Source of the DNA: Thauera terpenica 58Eu
Lineage (GTDB): Bacteria; Pseudomonadota; Gammaproteobacteria; Burkholderiales; Rhodocyclaceae
Reading direction: 5' to 3'
Length of the DNA stretch: 64,000 nucleotides
Assembly (NCBI RefSeq): GCF_000443165.1
Contig: NZ_ATJV01000059.1
Location: 124,001 to 188,000, forward strand
The notes under the pieces were generated by a model. It saw nothing but the letters and a program-made list of their open reading frames with translations. It searched no databases and was not told the origin of the DNA. The position numbers and the translations under genes were made by a program. This document shows, piece after piece, positions 2,976 to 11,712 of the stretch (position 1 is its first letter; every line of letters begins with the position of its first letter).

Positions 2976-3422
2976 TCAGCTTGAGCCAGCGGACAACCTG
3001 CGTTGCAAGCCCCGCATCAGACTGCCAATCAAGGGCAGGTGGGCATACAGCTCTTCGGCCGGATCCCAGTAATCGCGGTGCAGCACCACCTTGCCGCCGG
3101 CATCGAAACGCAGATGACTCACGCCAGCTACGACAAGGTCGCGCCCGCGCAGCCTGAGGTGAAAGTTCCACCCCAGCATGGCCTGATCACCATCGACGAT
3201 GCGCGTAGTGACAGCGAAGCGCGGTCCATCAACGCTTGCGAACATGTGTTCGAAAATGCCGCGAATGGCGACCACACCCAGGACTTCGTTGAACGGATCC
3301 TTGAAGCGCGCCTCGGCCGCATACAGTGCGTCGAGCTCATGCAGCGTGGCGGGGGACAGCGCCTCAAAGAAATCGGCGAGGCGATCCACGGCCTTCGCTG
3401 TGCTCACAGCGTGCAGGTTCAT
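2976..3422 (-). CDS. SnoaL/NTF2-like protein
   Basis: 148-aa single-domain protein of the NTF2-like/SnoaL superfamily, a cone-shaped alpha+beta fold used for small-molecule binding or isomerisation. The pattern FFEALSP...LYAAEARFKDPFNEV...FEHMF with a C-terminal HRDYWDPAEELYAHLP is typical of the nuclear-transport-factor-2 family copies found in folE2/cfa/SDR gene clusters. Its start lies 8 bp downstream of the SDR stop, so it is probably the last gene of that operon. The substrate is unknown. Confidence 0.8.
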   Translation of the reverse strand: MNLHAVSTAKAVDRLADFFEALSPATLHELDALYAAEARFKDPFNEVLGVVAIRGIFEHMFASVDGPRFAVTTRIVDGDQAMLGWNFHLRLRGRDLVVAGVSHLRFDAGGKVVLHRDYWDPAEELYAHLPLIGSLMRGLQRRLSAGSS

Positions 3423-3430
3423 CGCTGCCT

Positions 3431-4219
3431 CTACAGCCCGGTCAGGCGCCGGATGAGCGGGAAATACCAGCGCCGCGGCAGCCATTGCAAGAGCTTGAGC
3501 ACGCGCGTGAAGCGACGCGGAAAATGGATCTCGAAGTCGCCGCGGGCGAAGCCGGCGATGATCTCCTGCGCGGCCTCCTCGGCGCTGATCAGCGCCGGCA
3601 TGTGAAAGTCGTTCCGTGCCGTGAGCGGAGTAAGCACGAAACCGGGGTCGATCAGGTACACACCCAAGCCCTTGGGCGAGAGGTCGAGATGCAAGGTCTC
3701 GGCAAAGTTGATCAGTGCCGCCTTGCTCGGTCCATACACGCTGGCCTTGGGCAGGCCGCCGTAGCCCGCGACACTGCCCACGAGCGCGATTGCGCCCTGT
3801 CCTCTTTGCATCAGGTGCGGAATCACCGCCGCCGCGCCGACCATGGCCCCGAACACATTGGTGTCCAGAGTTTCGCGGATCAGCGTGGACTCCAGCTCCC
3901 AGGCGCGCAGCGGGCGATAAGTGCCGGCGCACAACACCAGCAGGTCGATGCCGCCCCAGTGGGCAAGCAGCGTGTCACGCGCACGGGCAAAGTCTTCCGG
4001 CCGGGTGACGTCCATAGCCGCAAGCACGGTATCGATGCCGCAATCGAGTGCGACCGCCTCCAGCCCGCTACGACTGCGCGCCGACAAGCCCAGCCGCGCC
4101 CCCCGCGCCGCCAAGGCCCGCGCCAGCGCCGCGCCTATGCCCGACGAAGCCCCCACCACCCATACGCGCTTTCCCTGCCAGTCGCGGATAGGTGGATTGA
4201 GCGGCGCCAGCCAGGCCAT
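3431..4219 (-). CDS. SDR-family NAD(P)-dependent oxidoreductase
   Basis: Short-chain dehydrogenase/reductase with a Rossmann fold. The nucleotide motif GASSGIG is near residue 20, LCAG follows beta-4, and the catalytic Ser and YGPSK (YxxxK) are present. A basic, tryptophan-rich C-terminal tail (FPRRFTRVLKLLQWLPRRWYFPLI) suggests peripheral membrane contact. I place the start at 4219, behind an AGGTGGGG-like site; an in-frame ATG at 4267 adds 16 residues but has no ribosome site. It sits between the cfa-like gene and the SnoaL-like gene, a grouping seen in lipid-modification clusters. Substrate not predictable. Confidence 0.88.
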   Translation of the reverse strand: MAWLAPLNPPIRDWQGKRVWVVGASSGIGAALARALAARGARLGLSARSRSGLEAVALDCGIDTVLAAMDVTRPEDFARARDTLLAHWGGIDLLVLCAGTYRPLRAWELESTLIRETLDTNVFGAMVGAAAVIPHLMQRGQGAIALVGSVAGYGGLPKASVYGPSKAALINFAETLHLDLSPKGLGVYLIDPGFVLTPLTARNDFHMPALISAEEAAQEIIAGFARGDFEIHFPRRFTRVLKLLQWLPRRWYFPLIRRLTGL

Positions 4220-4330
4220 CACCCGCCCCACCTGTAGAAGGACGGCGACAAGCCCAAGGCCTCGCATGCAAGGAAATCAGATGCGGGGCTGCGAGTCATG
4301 CTCATTCATGGTCATTACAGACGCCTGCGC

Positions 4331-5563
4331 TCATGACGCTGCTTCCAGATGGGCAAACACATAGTGATGCACGTCGATATCGCCACTCACGAAGCCGGCT
4401 TCGCAATACGACAGATAAAAGCGCCACGTGCGACGGAAGCGTTCGTCAAAGCCCTGCGCCTTCACCGCGGGCCACTGCGCCTCGAAGCGCTCATGCCAGT
4501 GCGCCAGGGTGCGTGCGTAATCTTTGCCGAAGGCGAAGTCGCCTACCACCTCAAAGCCGGCCTGACGTGCGCGCAGCTCCACAGCACCGGGGCTGGGCAA
4601 CATGCCGCCGGGGAAGATGTGGCGCTGAATGAAGTCGGTGCCGCGGCGATAACGCGCGAACAAGGCATCGGCGACGGTGATCGACTGCACCACGCAGCGC
4701 CCCGAGGGCTTCAGGCGTGCTGACAGCTGGGCGAAATAGGTCGGCCAGAAGCGCTCACCGACGGCCTCGATCATCTCGATCGACACCACGTGGTCGTACT
4801 GCCCGCGCACATCACGGTAATCGCACAGCTCGAAATCCACCTGCTCGCCATAGCCGCCTTTTTCGGCGCGCGCGCGTGCAAAGGCGAGTTGCGACGGCGA
4901 CAGCGTGATGCCCAGCACCCGACACCCAAACTCGGTCGCCGCCACCTCGGCAAAACCACCCCAGCCGCAGCCGATCTCAAGAATGGTCTGACCCGGTTTC
5001 ACATCGAGCTGGCCGAGAATGCGGCGATATTTACGCAACTGCCCATCCCGCAAGGGCTCCCCGGCCGATGCGAACATTGCAGCCGAGTATGTCATCGACG
5101 GATCGAGCCAGAGCGCATAGAAGTCGTTGCCCAGATCGTAGTGGGCTTCGATGTTGCGGCGCGAGCCGCTGCGCGTGTTGGCGCGCAGCAGATGGGTGAC
5201 GCGATGGCCGATCATGCTCAAAAGACGACCATGGATGGCTTGACCGATACGCTCACGATTGCGCGACAGCAGCGTGAGCAGCCCCGTGAGATCGTCGGTA
5301 TCCCAGTGCTCATCCATGAAGCTTTCGCCAAATCCGATGTCACCGCGCGCCAGGGCTTCGTCGAACATCGCAAGCTCGCGCACACGCAGATGCGCGACCA
5401 AAGGCCCATGACCGGCGCGCAGGTGCTCGCCTCCCGGCAGTTCGATTGCCAACGCCCCACCCTCGAGCCCGTCGAGCAACTCCAGCACCATGCGGGTGGC
5501 GCGTGGCAGACGCGACCGCTTTATGCTGGCGACAGGCTGCAGAACGTGTTCCGGTGCATTCAT
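4331..5563 (-). CDS. cfa: Cyclopropane-fatty-acyl-phospholipid synthase-family methyltransferase
   Basis: SAM-dependent methyltransferase acting on unsaturated acyl chains of membrane phospholipids, 410 aa. The N-terminal lipid-binding region is followed by the methyltransferase domain with SAM motif LEIGCGWGGFAE, the family motif HYDLGNDFY, and SIEMIEAVGERFWP. Cfa synthases and the methylases of methyl-branched/furan fatty acid synthesis share this fold, and the sequence alone does not separate them. The neighbouring FAD oxidoreductase and DUF1365 protein favour a multi-step modification over plain cyclopropanation. The start at 5563 overlaps the DUF1365 stop (ATGA) and has a GAGGAG site. 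Confidence 0.93.
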   Translation of the reverse strand: MNAPEHVLQPVASIKRSRLPRATRMVLELLDGLEGGALAIELPGGEHLRAGHGPLVAHLRVRELAMFDEALARGDIGFGESFMDEHWDTDDLTGLLTLLSRNRERIGQAIHGRLLSMIGHRVTHLLRANTRSGSRRNIEAHYDLGNDFYALWLDPSMTYSAAMFASAGEPLRDGQLRKYRRILGQLDVKPGQTILEIGCGWGGFAEVAATEFGCRVLGITLSPSQLAFARARAEKGGYGEQVDFELCDYRDVRGQYDHVVSIEMIEAVGERFWPTYFAQLSARLKPSGRCVVQSITVADALFARYRRGTDFIQRHIFPGGMLPSPGAVELRARQAGFEVVGDFAFGKDYARTLAHWHERFEAQWPAVKAQGFDERFRRTWRFYLSYCEAGFVSGDIDVHHYVFAHLEAAS

Positions 5564-6375
5564 CGGGAGGTCTCCTCTTGCGGCGGCAGGGGTTTGCGAT
5601 GAAAGCGCACCCGCCGCATGGCCAGGCGTAAGGCCTGCCAATGGATACGGGCGATCACGCCCAGGGTCATGAAAGGTTGGCGCAGCAACCAGCGCCGCAT
5701 CGCGTGCCCATCGAGCACCTCGGCACGCCCGCCGATCCGGGTGGAGAGCTGCAACACCCCCTCATCCCAGAGGTCGATCTGCACCGCGTGCACACGGCCA
5801 CGGCGCTCGAAGCGAAAACGGTATTCACCGCTGAGCGGGAAGAAGGGTGAGACGTGAAAGACCTTGCGTGCGCGCAACGCATCGCCAGACTCGATGGCGC
5901 GCACATCAGCGTGATGCACCAGGTAATTGTGGCGCTCGCCAAAGGTGTTATTCACCTGCGCCAGCACCACGCGCAAAGCGCCGCTGGCGTCGTGACAGAA
6001 CCAGAAACTCACCGGGTTGAACACATAGCCGAACACGCGTGGCATGGTCTGCAACACCACCTCACCGTCGCACACTGCGCGCAGCCCGTAGGTATCCAGG
6101 ACGCGCTGCAGCCAGGGCAGGAGCGCCGAGCCATCACGCGCACCGTGGTCACGCCGCCGAAAGCTGAAAAAATTGGCGCGCTCGATGCCCAGCAGAGGCA
6201 CCTTGAGATCATCGATGCGGGACAGCGGCAGGCGCAGGAAAGCGCAGGGATAGACAAAACGGTTGTTGGCGACGGTGTGGCGCTCATGCATCACCGCCCC
6301 GAAGCACACCGCAGGCTGCAGATGGGCTGCGCCTGCGGCCGCATCTGCACCGAGCGCGGCAGGCGTCTTGCTCAC
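5560..6375 (-). CDS. DUF1365 domain protein
   Basis: 271-aa DUF1365-family protein. Characteristic blocks are FVYPCAFLRLPL, FFSFRRRDHG, GYVFNPVSFWFCHD and FGERHNYLVHH. The biochemical role of the family is not settled; it is almost always coded beside an FAD amine-oxidase-like protein and a Cfa-like methyltransferase, as here, with 4-bp overlaps on both sides (stop with cfa, start with the FAD oxidoreductase). Expression is therefore probably translationally coupled. In photosynthetic alphaproteobacteria the equivalent cluster is linked to singlet-oxygen defence, which is known family context and not shown here. Confidence 0.9.
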   Translation of the reverse strand: MSKTPAALGADAAAGAAHLQPAVCFGAVMHERHTVANNRFVYPCAFLRLPLSRIDDLKVPLLGIERANFFSFRRRDHGARDGSALLPWLQRVLDTYGLRAVCDGEVVLQTMPRVFGYVFNPVSFWFCHDASGALRVVLAQVNNTFGERHNYLVHHADVRAIESGDALRARKVFHVSPFFPLSGEYRFRFERRGRVHAVQIDLWDEGVLQLSTRIGGRAEVLDGHAMRRWLLRQPFMTLGVIARIHWQALRLAMRRVRFHRKPLPPQEETSR

Positions 6376-7712
6376 GCTGCCTGCTCCACGCGGGCGACAC
6401 GGGGCTGCGCCTCACGCCAGGGGACTTTGACGCCCATCGACTCCACCACCGCAAGCGCCGAACGCAGCCCGTCCTCGTGGAAGCCAAAGCCGGTCCAGGC
6501 GCCGGCGAACCAGGTGTGGTTGAGCCCTTGCAGGCGCGGCAGATGCTCCTGCGCCTTGATCGCGGTTTCGTCAAACACCGGATGGGCGTAGTGGATGCGT
6601 TTGATCAGGTGCTCGGCAGCAGGCTCCCTGAACGGATTCAGTGACACCACCACCGGCACATCGAAAGGCAGTGGCTGCAGGCGATTGATCAGATAGCTCA
6701 CCGCCACCGGGCGGGTGTCAGGCGCGCCCACACCCGCCATGTAATTCCACGCCGACCACACTTTGCGACGCGTCGGCAACAGGCTGGGGTCGGTGTGCAG
6801 CACTGCGGTGTTGTTCTGATAGCGCACCGCGCTCAGCAGCTTGTGCTCTGCGGCGGTGGCGCCATCACTGAGAATGCGTAGCGCCTGGTCGCTATGACAG
6901 GCAAGGACGATGCGGTCGAAATGCTCAAGCCCATGGCGCGTGCCCACCCACACCCCATCGACGTCCCGCCGCACCATCGTCACCGCTGAATCGAGGCGCA
7001 GATCTTCAAGTTTTTCCACCATCTTGCGCACATAGCTGCGCCCGCCGTTCTTCACCGTCATCCACTGCGGCCGATCGAAGATCTGCAACAAGCCGTGGTT
7101 GTGGCAGAAGCGCACGAAGGTGGCGAGCGGGTAATCGAGCATGGTCTGCGTCGGGCAGGACCAGATCGCGGCGGCCATCGGCAGCAGATACCAGTCACGG
7201 AAGGACGCGCTGTAATCCTCCAGCGCCAGATAGTCACCAAGCGACAGCGCCGGCATCTCATCGTCTCGGGACAGGCGTGTGGTGTCACGATTGAAGCGCA
7301 TGATGTCGCTCAGCATGCGCAGAAAAGCCGGGCGCACAAGGTTGCGCGGCTGCGCGAACACGCTGGCAAGGTCAGTGCCGGACCACTCGATATCGTGTTC
7401 GGCGAGGCTGACGCCAAAGCTCATCTCACTGTCGACCGCTTCGACTCCGAGCTCTGCAAACAGCGCAATCAGGTTTGGGTAGGTGCGCCGGTTGAACACG
7501 AGAAAGCCGGTATCCACCGGATGCGTGACCCCCTCCAGCGAGACGTCGACCGTGTGGGTGTGCCCCCCTGCCGCAGTGCCCGCCTCGAACAAGGTGACCT
7601 GCGCATGCTCGGTGAGCAGCCATGCCGTGGACAAACCCGCTATGCCACCGCCGACCACAGCCACGCGCGGCTTGCCGGTGCCTGAGTTTCGGCCGATTTC
7701 ACCTCTGTCCAT
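6372..7712 (-). CDS. FAD-dependent amine-oxidase-type oxidoreductase
   Basis: 446-aa flavoprotein. The N-terminal dinucleotide motif VVGGGIAGLSTAW spans about residues 19-31, and the C-terminal FAD motif is WFAGAWTGFGFHEDGLRSAL. It resembles the NAD(P)/FAD proteins (phytoene-desaturase-like fold) that accompany Cfa and DUF1365, and may desaturate or oxidise methylated acyl chains. The start at 7712 lies only 4 bp after the folE2 stop, and its stop overlaps the next start by 4 bp. Longer upstream in-frame starts would run into folE2 and are not conserved-looking. Confidence 0.88.
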   Translation of the reverse strand: MDRGEIGRNSGTGKPRVAVVGGGIAGLSTAWLLTEHAQVTLFEAGTAAGGHTHTVDVSLEGVTHPVDTGFLVFNRRTYPNLIALFAELGVEAVDSEMSFGVSLAEHDIEWSGTDLASVFAQPRNLVRPAFLRMLSDIMRFNRDTTRLSRDDEMPALSLGDYLALEDYSASFRDWYLLPMAAAIWSCPTQTMLDYPLATFVRFCHNHGLLQIFDRPQWMTVKNGGRSYVRKMVEKLEDLRLDSAVTMVRRDVDGVWVGTRHGLEHFDRIVLACHSDQALRILSDGATAAEHKLLSAVRYQNNTAVLHTDPSLLPTRRKVWSAWNYMAGVGAPDTRPVAVSYLINRLQPLPFDVPVVVSLNPFREPAAEHLIKRIHYAHPVFDETAIKAQEHLPRLQGLNHTWFAGAWTGFGFHEDGLRSALAVVESMGVKVPWREAQPRVARVEQAA

Positions 7713-7716
7713 GGTC

Positions 7717-8523
7717 TTACTGCGCAAGGTTCTCGCCTTCGATGAAGGCGTATGCGGAATGGTTGTGAATGGACTCGAAGTTCTCCGAGGCCACCGACCA
7801 CGCCGCCACCCGCGGCTCCGCACCCAGACGCAGCGCGATGTCACGCACCAGGTCTTCGACGAACTTGGGATTGTCGTAGGCGCGCTCGGTCACCCACTTT
7901 TCGTCGGCGCGCTTGAGCAGGCCGAACACCTCACACGAGGCTTCTTCCTCGGCAATGCGCAGCAGCTCGTCGAGCTCCATGTCGGCGCGCAGGCGCACAT
8001 CGAGCGTGATGTGTGAGCGCTGGTTGTGCGCACCGTAGGCGGAGATCTTCTTCGAACATGGGCACAAGCTGGTCACCGGCACCACCACCTGCAAGCGGGT
8101 ATGCACGCTGCCGCCCTCGGTTTGCTCGACAATCACGGTGGCGTCCATGTCGAGCAGACTGGCGACGCCTGAAACCGGCGCCTGCTTGCGCACGAACCAC
8201 GGAAAGCGCGCCTCGATGCGCCCACTGCTGGCCTCAAGGCGCTGCAGCATGTCGGCGAACAGGCCGCGCACACCGGCGAGATCAAGCGCTTCGTGTTGCG
8301 CCTCGAGCAACTCCACAAAGCGCGACATGTGCGTGCCCTTCTGATCCGCCGCCAGACCTACCGTCATCTCGATGGTCGCCACCGTGTGCTGCACCGTCCC
8401 ACCCGCGGCAGCGATCGCCAAGGGGTAGCGCAGGCCACGGACGCCGACACGCTGGATGGGCAGCGCGCGGTGATCGGCACTGGCCTGAACGTCAGGAAGG
8501 AAGAACTTGTCGGGGGCGTTCAT
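7717..8523 (-). CDS. folE2: GTP cyclohydrolase FolE2 (type IB)
   Basis: Converts GTP to 7,8-dihydroneopterin triphosphate for folate/pterin synthesis; the FolE2 type works with metals other than zinc. The 268-aa product shows Cys154 and Cys156 in TSLCPCSK, His65 in GTHMSRF, and the C-terminal [11 protein letters not shown] block. Its ATG overlaps the stop of a small upstream ORF (ATGA), so it is the second gene of the operon whose promoter carries the TTTGTCC-type palindromes. Placing a folate enzyme at the head of a lipid-modification operon is odd, but folate is the antenna precursor of photolyases, which would suit light control. Confidence 0.95.
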
Positions 8524-8750
8524 TTGCGCACCTCCTGCGCCGCCAGACGTGAGGCAGGAATCAGATCAGCGCGATGGACAAACAGCATCAGATCCAGCGC
8601 CGCGAGTTCCGCGCTTGCGGACGAGAGCGCAGGCGCAGCTTGCGTGCGCGGAGCAGAAAACGGTGCCGCCGCCAGGGCAAGGGGCGCGAGCACGGCGGCG
8701 AGGGCAAGCATGGCTGCCGGCAGCAGCAGGTAGCGGTCTTTGGTTTTCAT
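8520..8750 (-). CDS. Small exported/membrane protein, operon leader
   Basis: 76-aa protein beginning [20 protein letters not shown], with a strong signal peptide or N-terminal anchor (about residues 7-30), a short Ala/Pro/Ser linker and a C-terminal amphipathic stretch ([20 protein letters not shown]). I do not recognise the family. The ATG at 8750 has an AGGAC ribosome site that lies inside an operator palindrome, and its stop overlaps the folE2 start. It is the first translated gene of the folE2-cfa operon. An upstream in-frame TTG would translate the palindrome and is rejected. Confidence 0.6.
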
Positions 8751-8751
8751 T

Positions 8752-8768
8752 TTTTGTCCTGGACAAAA
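8752..8768. promoter_or_regulatory. Operator palindrome O1
   Basis: TTTTGTCC-T-GGACAAAA is a perfect 8+1+8 palindrome directly upstream of the small-ORF start, covering its ribosome-binding site. Each arm contains TGGACA/TGTCCA, which fits a TnnACA half-site as described for CarH-type regulators. Its centre (8760) is 63 bp from the centre of O2. Confidence 0.75.
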
Positions 8769-8785
8769 CAAGGAAGTGATTGAAC

Positions 8786-8812
8786 ATTATGCTAACGATC
8801 ACCACCTGTCAA
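8786..8812 (-). promoter_or_regulatory. Promoter of the folE2-cfa operon
   Basis: Read on the minus strand: a perfect TTGACA (8812-8807) and CATAAT (8791-8786), 15 bp apart, or TAATGT at 17 bp. It is bracketed by the palindromes O2 (just upstream of -35) and O1 (just downstream of the likely start site). The predicted leader is about 30 nt. Confidence 0.6.
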
Positions 8813-8815
8813 TTC

Positions 8816-8830
8816 TTTGTCCTGGACATT
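8816..8830. promoter_or_regulatory. Operator palindrome O2
   Basis: TTTGTCC-T-GGACATT has the core TGTCC-T-GGACA palindromic, the same motif as O1. It abuts the -35 of the folE2 operon and overlaps the 5' end of the Na/Pi transporter frame. Confidence 0.7.
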
Positions 8831-10604
8831 TTTACGAGCTTCCCGGAAGCCTCAAACGGCATTACGCTCTCCGGCTATTGACCCGCCTCGGAGCGCTGCC
8901 CTGGAACCGCTTGCCCCCACCACTTTCGAACTGATCTCGGCGCTCGCCGGGGGCATCGGCCTGTTCCTGATCGGCATGCACATGATGACCGAGGGCTTGA
9001 AACTGGCCGCCGGCCACGCCCTGGAAGGTCTGCTCGAACGCGGCACTGCCACCGCGCCCCGCGGTCTTGCCGCAGGCATGCTGATCACCGCGCTGATGCA
9101 GTCCTCCACCGCCATCACCGTCGCCAGCATCGGCTTCGTCAACACCGGCCTGCTGCCGATGAGCAATGCCTTGTGGGTGCTCTTCGGCTCCAACGTCGGC
9201 ACGACGATGAACACCTGGCTGATTGCCACTCTGGGCCTGGGCCTGAAGATCGACATCTTCGCCATGCCCTTCGTCGGCCTCGGTGCCTTCCTGATGCTCG
9301 GTGGCCGCACCCTGCGTGCGCGCGCACTCGGACAGGCGCTGGCGGGCTTCGGCGTGTTCTTCCTCGGCATCGACGGCCTCAAGAACGGTTTTCCGGCCCT
9401 GAGCAGCCTGGGCACGCTGCAGGATTTCATCGCCCCCGGTCTCACCGGCTGGCTCATCCTGATCGGCATCGGCACCCTGCTCAGGGTGCTGATGCAGGCC
9501 TCGGGCGCGATCATCGCGATCGTCATCGCCGCCGCCCAGAGCGGCCTGATGACGGTGGAGGCGGCCTGCGCGGTGCTGATCGGCACCAATATCGGCTCCA
9601 TCTCCACCGCCATCCTGTCGGCCATCGGCGCCACGCCCAATGCGCGCCGGCTCGCCGCAGCACATGTGATCTTCAACCTTGTGACCGGCGCGGTGGCGCT
9701 GCTGCTCCTGCCCGTGCTCATCGGCCTGCTCGGCTGGCTGGATGCCAACCTGAAAGAGCCACCGATACCGGCCTTGATGATTGCCCTCTTCCATACCGTG
9801 TTCAATCTGGTCGGCGTGATGCTGATGGTGCCGCTGGCGCCGGGCATGCTGCGCCTGCTCGAGAAGCGCTTTCTCAGCCGCAGCGAAGAGCTCGCCCGTC
9901 CGCACTACCTCGACGCCAACTCGCTCGCCATTCCCGACCTCGCGCTCCATGCCTTGCGCATGGAGCTCGGACGCACACAGGGCTTCGCACTCGCGGCACT
10001 CGCCGCACTCAGCCGCCTGCCCATGGACGGCGCCACGCTGGCGCGCGAGAGCGCGGCACTGCAGGCGCTGGCGCCTGCGATCGGCAACTACGCACGCCAG
10101 CTGAGCGCTGCCAGCCTGCCGCAAGCGCTGGTCGAAGCCCTCGCCCACAGCTTGCGCACGCTGCAGTACCAGGAGAGCGCCATCGTTGCCGTGCGCGAGG
10201 CAGCCGCGCTGACCGCCGCGCTGGGGCACAGCGCCGGCCCGGATTACGCCGCCGCCGTCGAGCGCTTCCGCCAGGCGGTGGCCGCCCTGGCCGTTGCAGC
10301 CAACCCCGACCTTGAGGGCTTCAGCCCACAAGCCGTGGAGCAACGCCTGGAAGAAGCCGAAGGCGAATACCAGGCGCTGAAGGAAGCGCTCCTGCTCGCC
10401 GGCGCACATGCACGCCTGGACATCCGCACCATGCAGAACTGGCTGCGTCTTGCCAGCCTGGAGCGCCGCGCGACCGAGCAGGCGGCCAAGGCCGCCCGCA
10501 TGATCGCCGCCCTGGAAAGCAGGAGCTCAGCGCAGGAACTCGCCCGCGTGGTCAGGGACATCACTGAAGACCAGAGCGGCACAGACCGCGACGCCGACCA
10601 CTGA
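8817..10604 (+). CDS. Na/Pi cotransporter family protein
   Basis: Sodium/phosphate symporter family (PNaS), 595 aa if begun at the TTG at 8817. The inverted-repeat transporter core shows FELISALAGGIGLFLIGMHMMTEGLKLAAG, ALMQSSTAITV (QSS motif), GSNVGTTMNTWL and, in the second half, QASGAIIAIV and GTNIGSISTAIL. A C-terminal PhoU-like helical domain covers about residues 370-590. No ATG or GTG precedes the first span: candidates are the TTG at 8817 inside operator O2, or a CTG at 8901 preceded by GGAG. The start is therefore uncertain and the N-terminal 28 residues may not be real. It reads divergently from the folE2 operon. Confidence 0.88.
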   Translation: MSWTFLRASRKPQTALRSPAIDPPRSAALEPLAPTTFELISALAGGIGLFLIGMHMMTEGLKLAAGHALEGLLERGTATAPRGLAAGMLITALMQSSTAITVASIGFVNTGLLPMSNALWVLFGSNVGTTMNTWLIATLGLGLKIDIFAMPFVGLGAFLMLGGRTLRARALGQALAGFGVFFLGIDGLKNGFPALSSLGTLQDFIAPGLTGWLILIGIGTLLRVLMQASGAIIAIVIAAAQSGLMTVEAACAVLIGTNIGSISTAILSAIGATPNARRLAAAHVIFNLVTGAVALLLLPVLIGLLGWLDANLKEPPIPALMIALFHTVFNLVGVMLMVPLAPGMLRLLEKRFLSRSEELARPHYLDANSLAIPDLALHALRMELGRTQGFALAALAALSRLPMDGATLARESAALQALAPAIGNYARQLSAASLPQALVEALAHSLRTLQYQESAIVAVREAAALTAALGHSAGPDYAAAVERFRQAVAALAVAANPDLEGFSPQAVEQRLEEAEGEYQALKEALLLAGAHARLDIRTMQNWLRLASLERRATEQAAKAARMIAALESRSSAQELARVVRDITEDQSGTDRDADH

Positions 10605-10608
10605 AGCC

Positions 10609-10654
10609 CCTGAGGTGCGGCACGCGCGCCCTGCGCACCGGACCCGACCTCAGG
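10609..10654. terminator. Inverted repeat between convergent genes
   Basis: CCTGAGGT (10609-10616) pairs with ACCTCAGG (10647-10654) around a GC-rich inner stem (GGTGCG/CGCACC), in the spacer between the Na/Pi gene and the regulator gene. There is no T-tract; it may still stop or protect both transcripts. Confidence 0.4.
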
Positions 10655-10681
10655 CCGGCACACGCGTAGGCACACGCACGC

Positions 10682-11611
10682 TCAAGCAGACTGCGAGGGG
10701 TGCGCGTCGCGCCACTCCTGCAAGGCAAGGAGGCTGTCCTCCAGGCCCTCAACCACGCGCACGCCATCGAGGCGCTTGTGCCGGTTGTGTACGGCTCCAC
10801 CACCGGCCCAGAGCGCGACATGCGCCGGCAGACTGGCCCTCAGCTCCAGCAGGTCGTCCACCACCTGACGCGCCGGATAGGCGCTGCTGAAGGACAGCGC
10901 GACCACATCGAACGCTCCCGCGAGCGCGGCAGCGCGTATGTCGGCGAGCGGGGTACGCGTGCCCAGTGAAGTGCAGGCTGCGCCCTCGGGCACCAGCATC
11001 GCCTCCGCCATCAGCAGTCCGAGCACATGCAACTCGTCCGGCAAGGTGGTGAGCAAGATCCGCGGCCGGCCGTCGCCGCCCGCCTGCGCGCCGATCGCCG
11101 CGCGAAGCAGGTTCTGCACTTGCTCGGTGAAAAGGTGCTCATCCGCAACGAGCAGTTCCCCCCGCATCCAGGCCTCGCCCACCTCAGCCGCCAGCGGCGC
11201 CAGGGTGTCCACCACAAAGCGTTGCAGGCCCTGCTTCATCAGCGCACGCCGCAAGCCCGCAGCCAGTTCTGCAGCGCGGTGCAGGCAAACGCACTGCAGC
11301 AGCGTCGCATCGTGCTCCGGCGCCTGGGGGTCCACACTCTCATTGCGCAAGGTCTCGACGAGATCCGCAAGCTCTTCGGCCGTGGCCGCAACAATGCGTG
11401 CCGGGCGGTGCCCAGCGTCGAGCAGACGCCGGATCAGGCGCAAGCGGTCGAGCTGGTCCTGCGGGTAGAGGCGCTCACCATTGGCGTTGCGTGCCGGAGC
11501 GGGAAAACCATAGCGGCGCTCCCACACCCGCAGCGTGTCCTTGGACAAACCGGTGTCGCGCTCGACAGCGGCGATGGAAAAGACAGCTTGTTCGTGGGAG
11601 AGGGTGTTCAT
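10682..11611 (-). CDS. MerR-type, B12-binding photoreceptor regulator (CarH/LitR-like)
   Basis: 309-aa regulator. N-terminal MerR winged helix (FSIAAVERDTGLSKDTLRVWERRYGFP), then a four-helix bundle, then a cobalamin-binding Rossmann domain. Key residues of AdoB12-dependent CarH are present at matching spacing: Trp148, Glu158 and His159 (WX9EH), and lower-ligand His195 in ELHVLGL. These correspond to W131/E141/H142/H177 in Thermus CarH with an offset of 17-18. Such proteins repress as AdoB12-bound tetramers in the dark and release DNA in light. A near-palindrome of the folE2-promoter type lies at its own promoter, implying autoregulation. The ATG at 11611 is chosen because the MerR domain begins just after it; no clear ribosome site is seen. 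Confidence 0.9.
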   Translation of the reverse strand: MNTLSHEQAVFSIAAVERDTGLSKDTLRVWERRYGFPAPARNANGERLYPQDQLDRLRLIRRLLDAGHRPARIVAATAEELADLVETLRNESVDPQAPEHDATLLQCVCLHRAAELAAGLRRALMKQGLQRFVVDTLAPLAAEVGEAWMRGELLVADEHLFTEQVQNLLRAAIGAQAGGDGRPRILLTTLPDELHVLGLLMAEAMLVPEGAACTSLGTRTPLADIRAAALAGAFDVVALSFSSAYPARQVVDDLLELRASLPAHVALWAGGGAVHNRHKRLDGVRVVEGLEDSLLALQEWRDAHPSQSA

Positions 11612-11688
11612 CACGGGCGAAGAGCAGGTTGGAAAGGCAAATGCACAACAGCGGGAGATGCGCATACAAGCCGGGCATGCTAGGCCTC

Positions 11689-11694
11689 AGTGTA
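11689..11694 (-). promoter_or_regulatory. -10 box of the regulator gene
   Basis: TACACT on the minus strand, immediately downstream of operator O3, about 78 bp before the start codon. The -35 is not clear. Confidence 0.4.
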
Positions 11695-11697
11695 TTT

Positions 11698-11712
11698 TTT
11701 GTCCACGACAAA
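11698..11712. promoter_or_regulatory. Operator near-palindrome O3
   Basis: TTTGTCC-A-CGACAAA is the same motif as O1 and O2 with one mismatched base pair. It occupies the space just upstream of the -10 of the regulator gene, where a bound repressor would block its own promoter. Confidence 0.65.

Follow-up and report, generated by a model that had tools for sequence, protein, structure and literature searches.

The 64,000-nucleotide window analysed here, taken from contig NZ_ATJV01000059.1 of Thauera terpenica 58Eu, encodes a putative cobalamin-binding MerR-type regulator, an operon that likely directs furan-fatty-acid synthesis, and three copies of a palindromic operator, two of them on either side of the operon promoter and the third over the probable promoter of the regulator gene itself. 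An initial annotation had read this arrangement as a candidate regulon controlled by vitamin B12 and light; all the features that it listed are present, and the sequence comparisons described below support its interpretation. Published work is cited by PMC number, from excerpts of the papers.

The regulator and its operators

The regulator is encoded at 10682..11611 on the minus strand, with an alternative upstream start at 11665 on the same strand. According to Pfam, a sequence match in the PDB, a structure model, Foldseek and individual residues, this CarH/LitR-like protein consists of an N-terminal MerR winged helix-turn-helix (PF13411, 57.6 bits versus a cut-off of 21.6), as in class I LitR proteins, followed by a four-helix B12-binding_2 domain (PF02607, score of 33 versus 23) and a Rossmann B12-binding domain; both cobalamin subdomains of class I LitR are present as judged from Pfam and superposition. 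Foldseek ranks Thermus CarH (5c8e) first for the model (predicted local distance difference test score of 91.1), and the cobalamin half superposes on the Thermus CarH domain structures with a root-mean-square deviation (rmsd) of 2.1-2.7 over 190-197 residues (3.5 for 3whp). In this regulator, which is 69% identical to that of another Thauera contig (L042), the sequence shows a MerR winged helix joined to a cobalamin fold of the CarH type.

The residue set of the adenosylcobalamin (AdoB12) pocket that had been proposed at nearly the spacing of CarH is indeed there: W148, E158-H159 and H195 correspond to W131, E141, H142 and H177 of Thermus CarH, with a Trp-to-His distance of 47 versus 46. These four residues are kept in 80 of 81 alignment rows, the remaining row being a gap, again as in class I LitR, and together with E175 and G180 they are invariant in all 80 aligned rows. 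The upper ligand of the Thermus light state, His132, is replaced by Met149 in the window, and none of the 80 aligned rows has a histidine at this place (M in 32, L in 21, E in 11, others in the rest), which departs from the Thermus mechanism. This histidine is not universal among cobalamin photoreceptors (PMC11796333).

Three sites in the window resemble the palindrome TTTGTCCNGGACAAA. O1 (8753..8767, unstranded; TTTGTCCTGGACAAA) has no mismatches to it and lies 16 bp downstream of the -10 element of the operon promoter, whereas O2 (8816..8830, unstranded; TTTGTCCTGGACATT) has two mismatches and lies 3 bp upstream of the -35. The distance between both sites is exactly 63 bp and, as had been claimed, they flank a perfect TTGACA (8807..8812, minus strand), which a 17-bp spacer separates from TAATGT (8784..8789, minus strand). 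O3 (11698..11712, unstranded; TTTGTCGTGGACAAA on the minus strand) has one mismatch and covers the regulator's own promoter, whose probable -35, TGGACA (11700..11705, minus strand), and -10, TAGCAT (11677..11682, minus strand), were read by eye. TGGACA is the right half of the palindrome and stands 17 bp from TA(G/C/A)CAT in the window and in three other regulator loci of the same genus; its position inside O3 fits autorepression, in line with the autoregulation that had been suggested.

The window holds 1, 2, 3 and 5 palindrome sites at up to 0, 1, 2 and 3 mismatches, respectively, versus averages of 0, 0, 0.09 and 1.2 for 199 letter-shuffled palindromes. Elsewhere in the genome, a 12-position form of the palindrome matches at a single further place with no more than one mismatch. 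That place (L003) falls within an open frame of 739 aa and was rejected as a target when six flanks were read; in the other five (L004, L005, L007, L010 and L011), inspection by eye, without a family-library scan, revealed no light-related gene.

These sites are palindromes and not the tandem 11-bp TnnACA direct repeats of CarH operators, and only the right half of the palindrome plus the -35 resembles such a repeat. In the upstream palindrome, the GGACA half stands in an 11-bp step with TTGACA, and since the published CarH repeat unit, nnnnTnnACAn, is also 11 bp long (PMC9304148), the palindromic operator may derive from the CarH plan.

Conserved operator pairs and their co-occurrence with the regulator

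The regulator was found in 80 of the 199 family genomes searched, with an E-value of at most 1e-20 taken as presence. The exact palindrome occurs in 44 of these 80 genomes versus 0 of the 119 without the regulator (Fisher p 2e-22), so that the exact operator form was found in regulator-bearing genomes only, and the palindrome sites adjoin the regulator in nearly every locus examined. DUF1365, a domain encoded in the operon, follows the same distribution (77/80 versus 7/119). These counts come from whole-genome searches, the contig scan with the regulator protein yielding two loci, and paralogue matches in two genomes (G071 and G065) fall outside the locus set.

Operator spacing was compared among the window and 80 loci from 79 other family genomes, a pair being defined as two TTTGTCCNGGACAAA sites with at most three mismatches each and at most four in sum. 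Forty-eight pairs are spaced 62-64 bp apart, 20 are spaced 73-75 bp apart and three 76-100 bp apart, with none at 43-57 bp and none at 65-72 bp, which agrees with the earlier proposal that the paired sites share one face of the DNA. No pairs at 30-130 bp were obtained with 40 permuted palindromes, nor with five block shuffles.

The promoter was placed relative to these sites in the window and 79 loci (L044-L122), allowing sites of up to four mismatches and leaving out L123, a paralogue of 34% identity. A sigma-70 promoter lies between the paired sites in 70 of these 80 loci. The gaps from O2 to the -35, from the -35 to the -10, and from the -10 to O1 are 3, 17 and 16 bp in 38 of the 70 and 14, 17 and 16 bp in 15, with (4,17,16) in five, (3,17,15) in four, (2,17,16) in two and six singletons. 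The spacer is of 17 bp in 69/70 loci, and the extra 11 bp of the main 74-bp class sit solely between O2 and the -35; one 74-bp pair, in L093, has no promoter. Outside the -35 and -10 boxes the DNA between the sites is 34% identical over 20 genera, so that the distance is conserved and not the sequence.

Outside the family, a relative turned up in 14 of 369 genomes of the class, the genome of the window included. Pairs are spaced 64 bp in L156 and 63 bp in L157, L159 and L161. In L165 and L167, which come from two genomes of other families, the spacing is 42 bp; there the downstream site stands 21 bp closer and, by reading, takes in the -10. A single site lies near the regulator in L158, L160, L164 and L169, one weak site stands elsewhere in the locus of L166, and the loci of L162, L163 and L168 have no palindrome site. 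Taken together, the spacings of 42, 63, 74 and 86 bp (the last one in a single locus) roughly follow the helical turns of DNA.

Two further observations concern these pairs. The regulators of L165 and L167, with their 42-bp operator pairs, have W-x9-EH and lack the ExHxxG motif, and they are possibly B12-independent cousins with the same promoter clamp. In addition, a third palindrome is found 158-160 bp downstream of O1 in 12 pairs, in or near the small first open reading frame (L046, L048, L050, L052, L055, L058-L060, L062, L063, L066 and L070), and Phe-Val-Gln-Asp-Lys-like codons can be made out in it there.

The operon and the putative unlinked targets

All the genes of the operon are on the minus strand. 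The first one (8520..8750) encodes a 76-aa protein with a hydrophobic N-terminus and a C-terminal LMLFVHR, for which no Pfam or NCBIfam match was found with the copy in the window. It is followed by folE2, a type I GTP cyclohydrolase (7717..8523; PF02649, E 4e-89, above the NCBIfam cut-off), a UfaD-like oxidoreductase dependent on flavin adenine dinucleotide (FAD; 6372..7712, inferred start; PF01593, and its order with the DUF1365 and CMAS genes), a DUF1365 protein of UfaO type (5560..6375; PF07103, E 7e-75), a CFA/UfaM-type S-adenosylmethionine lipid methyltransferase (4331..5563, inferred start; PF02353, E 7e-84, and an NCBIfam Cfa score of 274.6, below the cut-off of 400), a short-chain dehydrogenase (3431..4267; PF00106) and a SnoaL-like protein (2976..3434, inferred start; PF12680).

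Furan fatty acids are scavengers of singlet oxygen. In Rhodobacter, UfaM, UfaD and UfaO suffice for their synthesis, and DUF1365 is the domain of UfaO (PMC7380195). The operon order likely reads ufaD-ufaO-ufaM plus folE2, and the lipid methyltransferase and FAD oxidoreductase already recognised in the initial annotation can, because of this UfaO, be assigned more sharply to furan-fatty-acid synthesis.

The small first protein belongs to an undescribed family of about 65-100 aa, with a hydrophobic N-terminus and a C-terminal motif similar to L-M-L-F-x-H-R, whose members occupy the first position behind O1 in some 35 of the 81 loci, counting the weak members L064, L097, L114 and L122. In 13 of the 81 loci (among them L082, L083, L088, L092, L110, L113 and L116; Pfam on L092 only), and in L157 from another family, the first gene instead resembles a glutathione peroxidase, so that the first slot of the operon appears to be swapped among genes. 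A Na/Pi cotransporter gene (8817-10604, plus strand) separates the operon from the regulator in the window and in L044 and L049, and lies beyond the regulator in eight other loci (L045, L046, L048, L050, L052, L053, L054 and L056), which suggests that a rearrangement split a divergent regulator-operon pair.

Outside the examined regulator loci there are 20 exact palindromes, whose flanks were scanned with Pfam except for L124 and L136. Photolyase-family genes stand beside five of them (L131, L132, L137 and L139 by Pfam, L141 by a PF00875 match), FAD amine-oxidoreductases beside four (L130, L133, L140 and L143) and DUF3429 beside two (L131 and L142); L135 corresponds to the operon promoter, located on a different contig. 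Within 400 bp of 14 of the 20, no second site with up to three mismatches was found. In two genomes of another family (L170 and L171), a 63-bp pair precedes a carotenoid cluster with a lycopene cyclase, a polyprenyl synthetase, a CrtI-like desaturase and a phytoene synthase (Pfam on L171, and sequence), a classical CarH target. The expectation that the palindrome would lead to photolyase or carotenoid genes thus held among the relatives, and light would be what connects the target sets of the different branches.

In single genomes, exact sites also stand beside chemoreceptors (L129, L134 and L138), ALAD (L128), a PAS-LytTR protein (L126) and an OvoA-like FGE-DinB-methyltransferase protein (L127). 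At the photolyase/DUF3429 sites L131 and L132, from genomes of the same genus (G067 and G150), the exact palindrome has a partner with three mismatches 74 bp away, so that the operator pair may extend to unlinked targets.

Proposed mechanism, alternatives and known systems

We consider it probable that the regulator is a CarH-type repressor of light-protection genes with a B12 domain, and that in darkness its oligomer occupies the two sites together. Bound to AdoB12 in the dark, the regulator would form a dimer of dimers, whose grip on O1 and O2, along the same DNA face, would keep RNA polymerase off the intervening promoter. Light would cleave the Co-C bond and loosen the oligomer, and the operon would then be transcribed, supplying the small membrane or secreted protein, FolE2, the UfaD-UfaO-UfaM furan-fatty-acid enzymes, the short-chain dehydrogenase and the SnoaL-like protein, whereas O3 would serve the negative autoregulation of the regulator. 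Both AdoB12 binding and the light response are inferred, as is the bridging of O1 and O2, in this case from their phase-locked spacing; with His132 replaced, the protein is not expected to pass through the bis-His state known from Thermus CarH when it lets go of the DNA in the light.

With somewhat less confidence, and by a narrow balance in its favour, we propose that a distinct CarH branch, present in Rhodocyclaceae and scattered families of the class, evolved a promoter clamp. Here, an AdoB12 oligomer would bind two same-face 15-bp palindromes flanking the -35 and -10 at helical-turn spacing (42, 63, 74 or 86 bp), with light release independent of a bis-His switch, and would control a general sunlight regulon of furan fatty acids, photolyase, pterin, glutathione peroxidase and chemoreceptors, not carotenoids alone.

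A number of observations weigh against the CarH-type repressor. The designation of the regulator as CarH/LitR-like holds for fold and pocket, but the light-state ligand is missing and the score against the NCBIfam CarH equivalog NF052513 (136.6 bits) does not reach the cut-off of 400, so that the protein is not filed as a CarH equivalog; PF02310 (B12-binding) is marginally under its own cut-off (32.0 versus 32.1). Most full-length alignments of the model to CarH have an rmsd of about 15-21, because the two halves of the protein sit differently, AppA and methionine synthase are good matches as well, and on this model the cobalamin fold by itself is not specific for CarH. From the literature, CarA of Myxococcus keeps the B12 motif and yet needs no B12 (PMC8156234), and the H132A variant of Thermus CarH mostly remains tetrameric in the light (PMC10442372). 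As for the operators, 10 of the 80 loci lack the combination of pair and promoter by the strict test (L047, L061, L081, L085, L096, L104, L117, L119, L120 and L121), even though L061 and L085 do carry a site pair, and only 6 of the 14 class-level loci keep a pair. The photolyase leader in the genome of the window (L147, C42) has only a 4-mismatch site, in the same place as the exact site of its genus mates with the regulator, which qualifies the photolyase target that had been expected; this decayed operator points to a possible loss of the regulator's control of DNA repair. Cobalamin adenosyltransferase, an observation in favour of the repressor, is found in 11 of 12 genomes, including 9 of the 10 with the regulator and that of the window, but the regulator-bearing G007 has no PF02572 match. 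Finally, among the observations against it, BLUF proteins occur in 13 of 20 genomes, all 13 belonging to the 18 that bear the regulator.

O1 and O2 could alternatively act independently, O1 as a roadblock just past the transcription start and O2 by occlusion beside the -35, in which case the spacing would reflect promoter placement only, with no bridging or looping. We regard this as possible, though clearly the less probable account. The promoter spacer is itself fixed, most unlinked exact sites are single and O3 stands alone, as would be expected of independent sites; however, the 74-bp class has O2 11 bp further from the -35 while the interval of 65-72 bp is empty, and the 42-bp pairs have their downstream site 21 bp nearer, so that the steps follow helical turns.

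Less likely still is a B12-independent repressor, similar to CarA or to class II LitR, which would bind the palindromes and receive its signal from another protein or from redox stress, the B12 pocket being a relic or structural. It would account for the absence of His132, it has the precedent of CarA, and BLUF is frequent among the regulator-bearing genomes; besides, the class II LitR of Pseudomonas controls, via a LOV protein, an operon with phrB, a short-chain dehydrogenase, an FAD oxidoreductase and ufaM. Against this, a relic would hardly keep six invariant pocket residues, and CtMerR, also without the second His, is still light-responsive (PMC11796333). The regulator has the C-terminal B12 domain that class II LitR lacks, and no short LOV partner was found: the canonical motif GRNCRFLQ, back-translated, is absent from all 20 genomes searched, of which 18 carry the regulator, although a divergent LOV could be missed by this search. 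BLUF (PF04940) was not found in five of the 18 regulator-bearing genomes (G000, that of the window, and G103, G193, G044 and G057), which leaves the window's genome without the anti-repressor of a BluR/BluF system. Direct B12 sensing by the regulator would hence be the simplest reading. It is very improbable that the palindromes serve some different, unlinked transcription factor and that the regulator is a bystander, given the absence of the exact form from the 119 genomes without the regulator, the place of the sites beside it in nearly all loci, and the photolyase leader of the genus, where the exact site is present in the other genomes that carry the regulator (3/3) and missing from those that do not (2/2).

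If the CarH-type mechanism is true, furan-fatty-acid synthesis in these bacteria would be under B12-light control. It would also bear on how a CarH without His132 releases in the light and on whether a CarH oligomer is able to span two palindromes at such a distance, and the near-fixed spacing would offer a two-site promoter of compact design with which expression could be controlled by light. Earlier work has already described CarH-type regulators, the carotenoid control that they exert and the control of ufaM operons by LitR (PMC9758184, PMC9304148, PMC8156234). Among the matches listed from open-licence PubMed Central, we found neither the paired palindromic promoter clamp, a His132-less branch with this regulon or the small first protein, nor a description of the light responses of these bacteria, which is not proof of absence; by title and abstract start, none of those matches dealt with this operator, or with this regulator in Rhodocyclaceae.

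Among the closest known systems is CarH from Thermus thermophilus, a class I LitR, which shares the MerR winged helix, the cobalamin fold and W131, E141, H142 and H177, and whose 11-bp repeat step recurs here between the -35 and the GGACA half-site. However, its operator consists of three tandem 11-bp repeats instead of 15-bp palindromes paired at 63 or 74 bp around the promoter, it has His132, and its targets are carotenoid genes rather than the furan lipids and folE2 of the window. The class II LitR proteins of Pseudomonas (PplR/PmlR) control a light-induced operon with a short-chain dehydrogenase, an FAD oxidoreductase, UfaM and a hypothetical first gene (PMC9758184), but they lack the C-terminal B12 domain, work with a short LOV partner and use TGTACA repeats, whereas the regulator of the window has both B12 domains and the LOV motif was missing from all 20 genomes searched. 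CtMerR from Chloracidobacterium is likewise a cobalamin MerR photoreceptor of the same fold (8jbs/8jbt) without the second His, an Arg in its case; its DNA-binding domain is different, and paired operators are absent from its description in the excerpt (PMC11796333). In Myxococcus xanthus, two inverted repeats close to the -35 are bound by two CarA dimers in a cooperative manner (PMC9304148). This operator, of about 55 bp, extends upstream of and over the -35 and does not bracket the promoter, and CarA is B12-independent. The control of the ufa genes by Rhodobacter ChrR is of the sigma/anti-sigma type and involves no CarH. It nevertheless acts on the same enzymes (ufaM, ufaD and ufaO), furan fatty acids rising upon the loss of ChrR (PMC7380195), which is an anti-sigma factor (PMC5241685).

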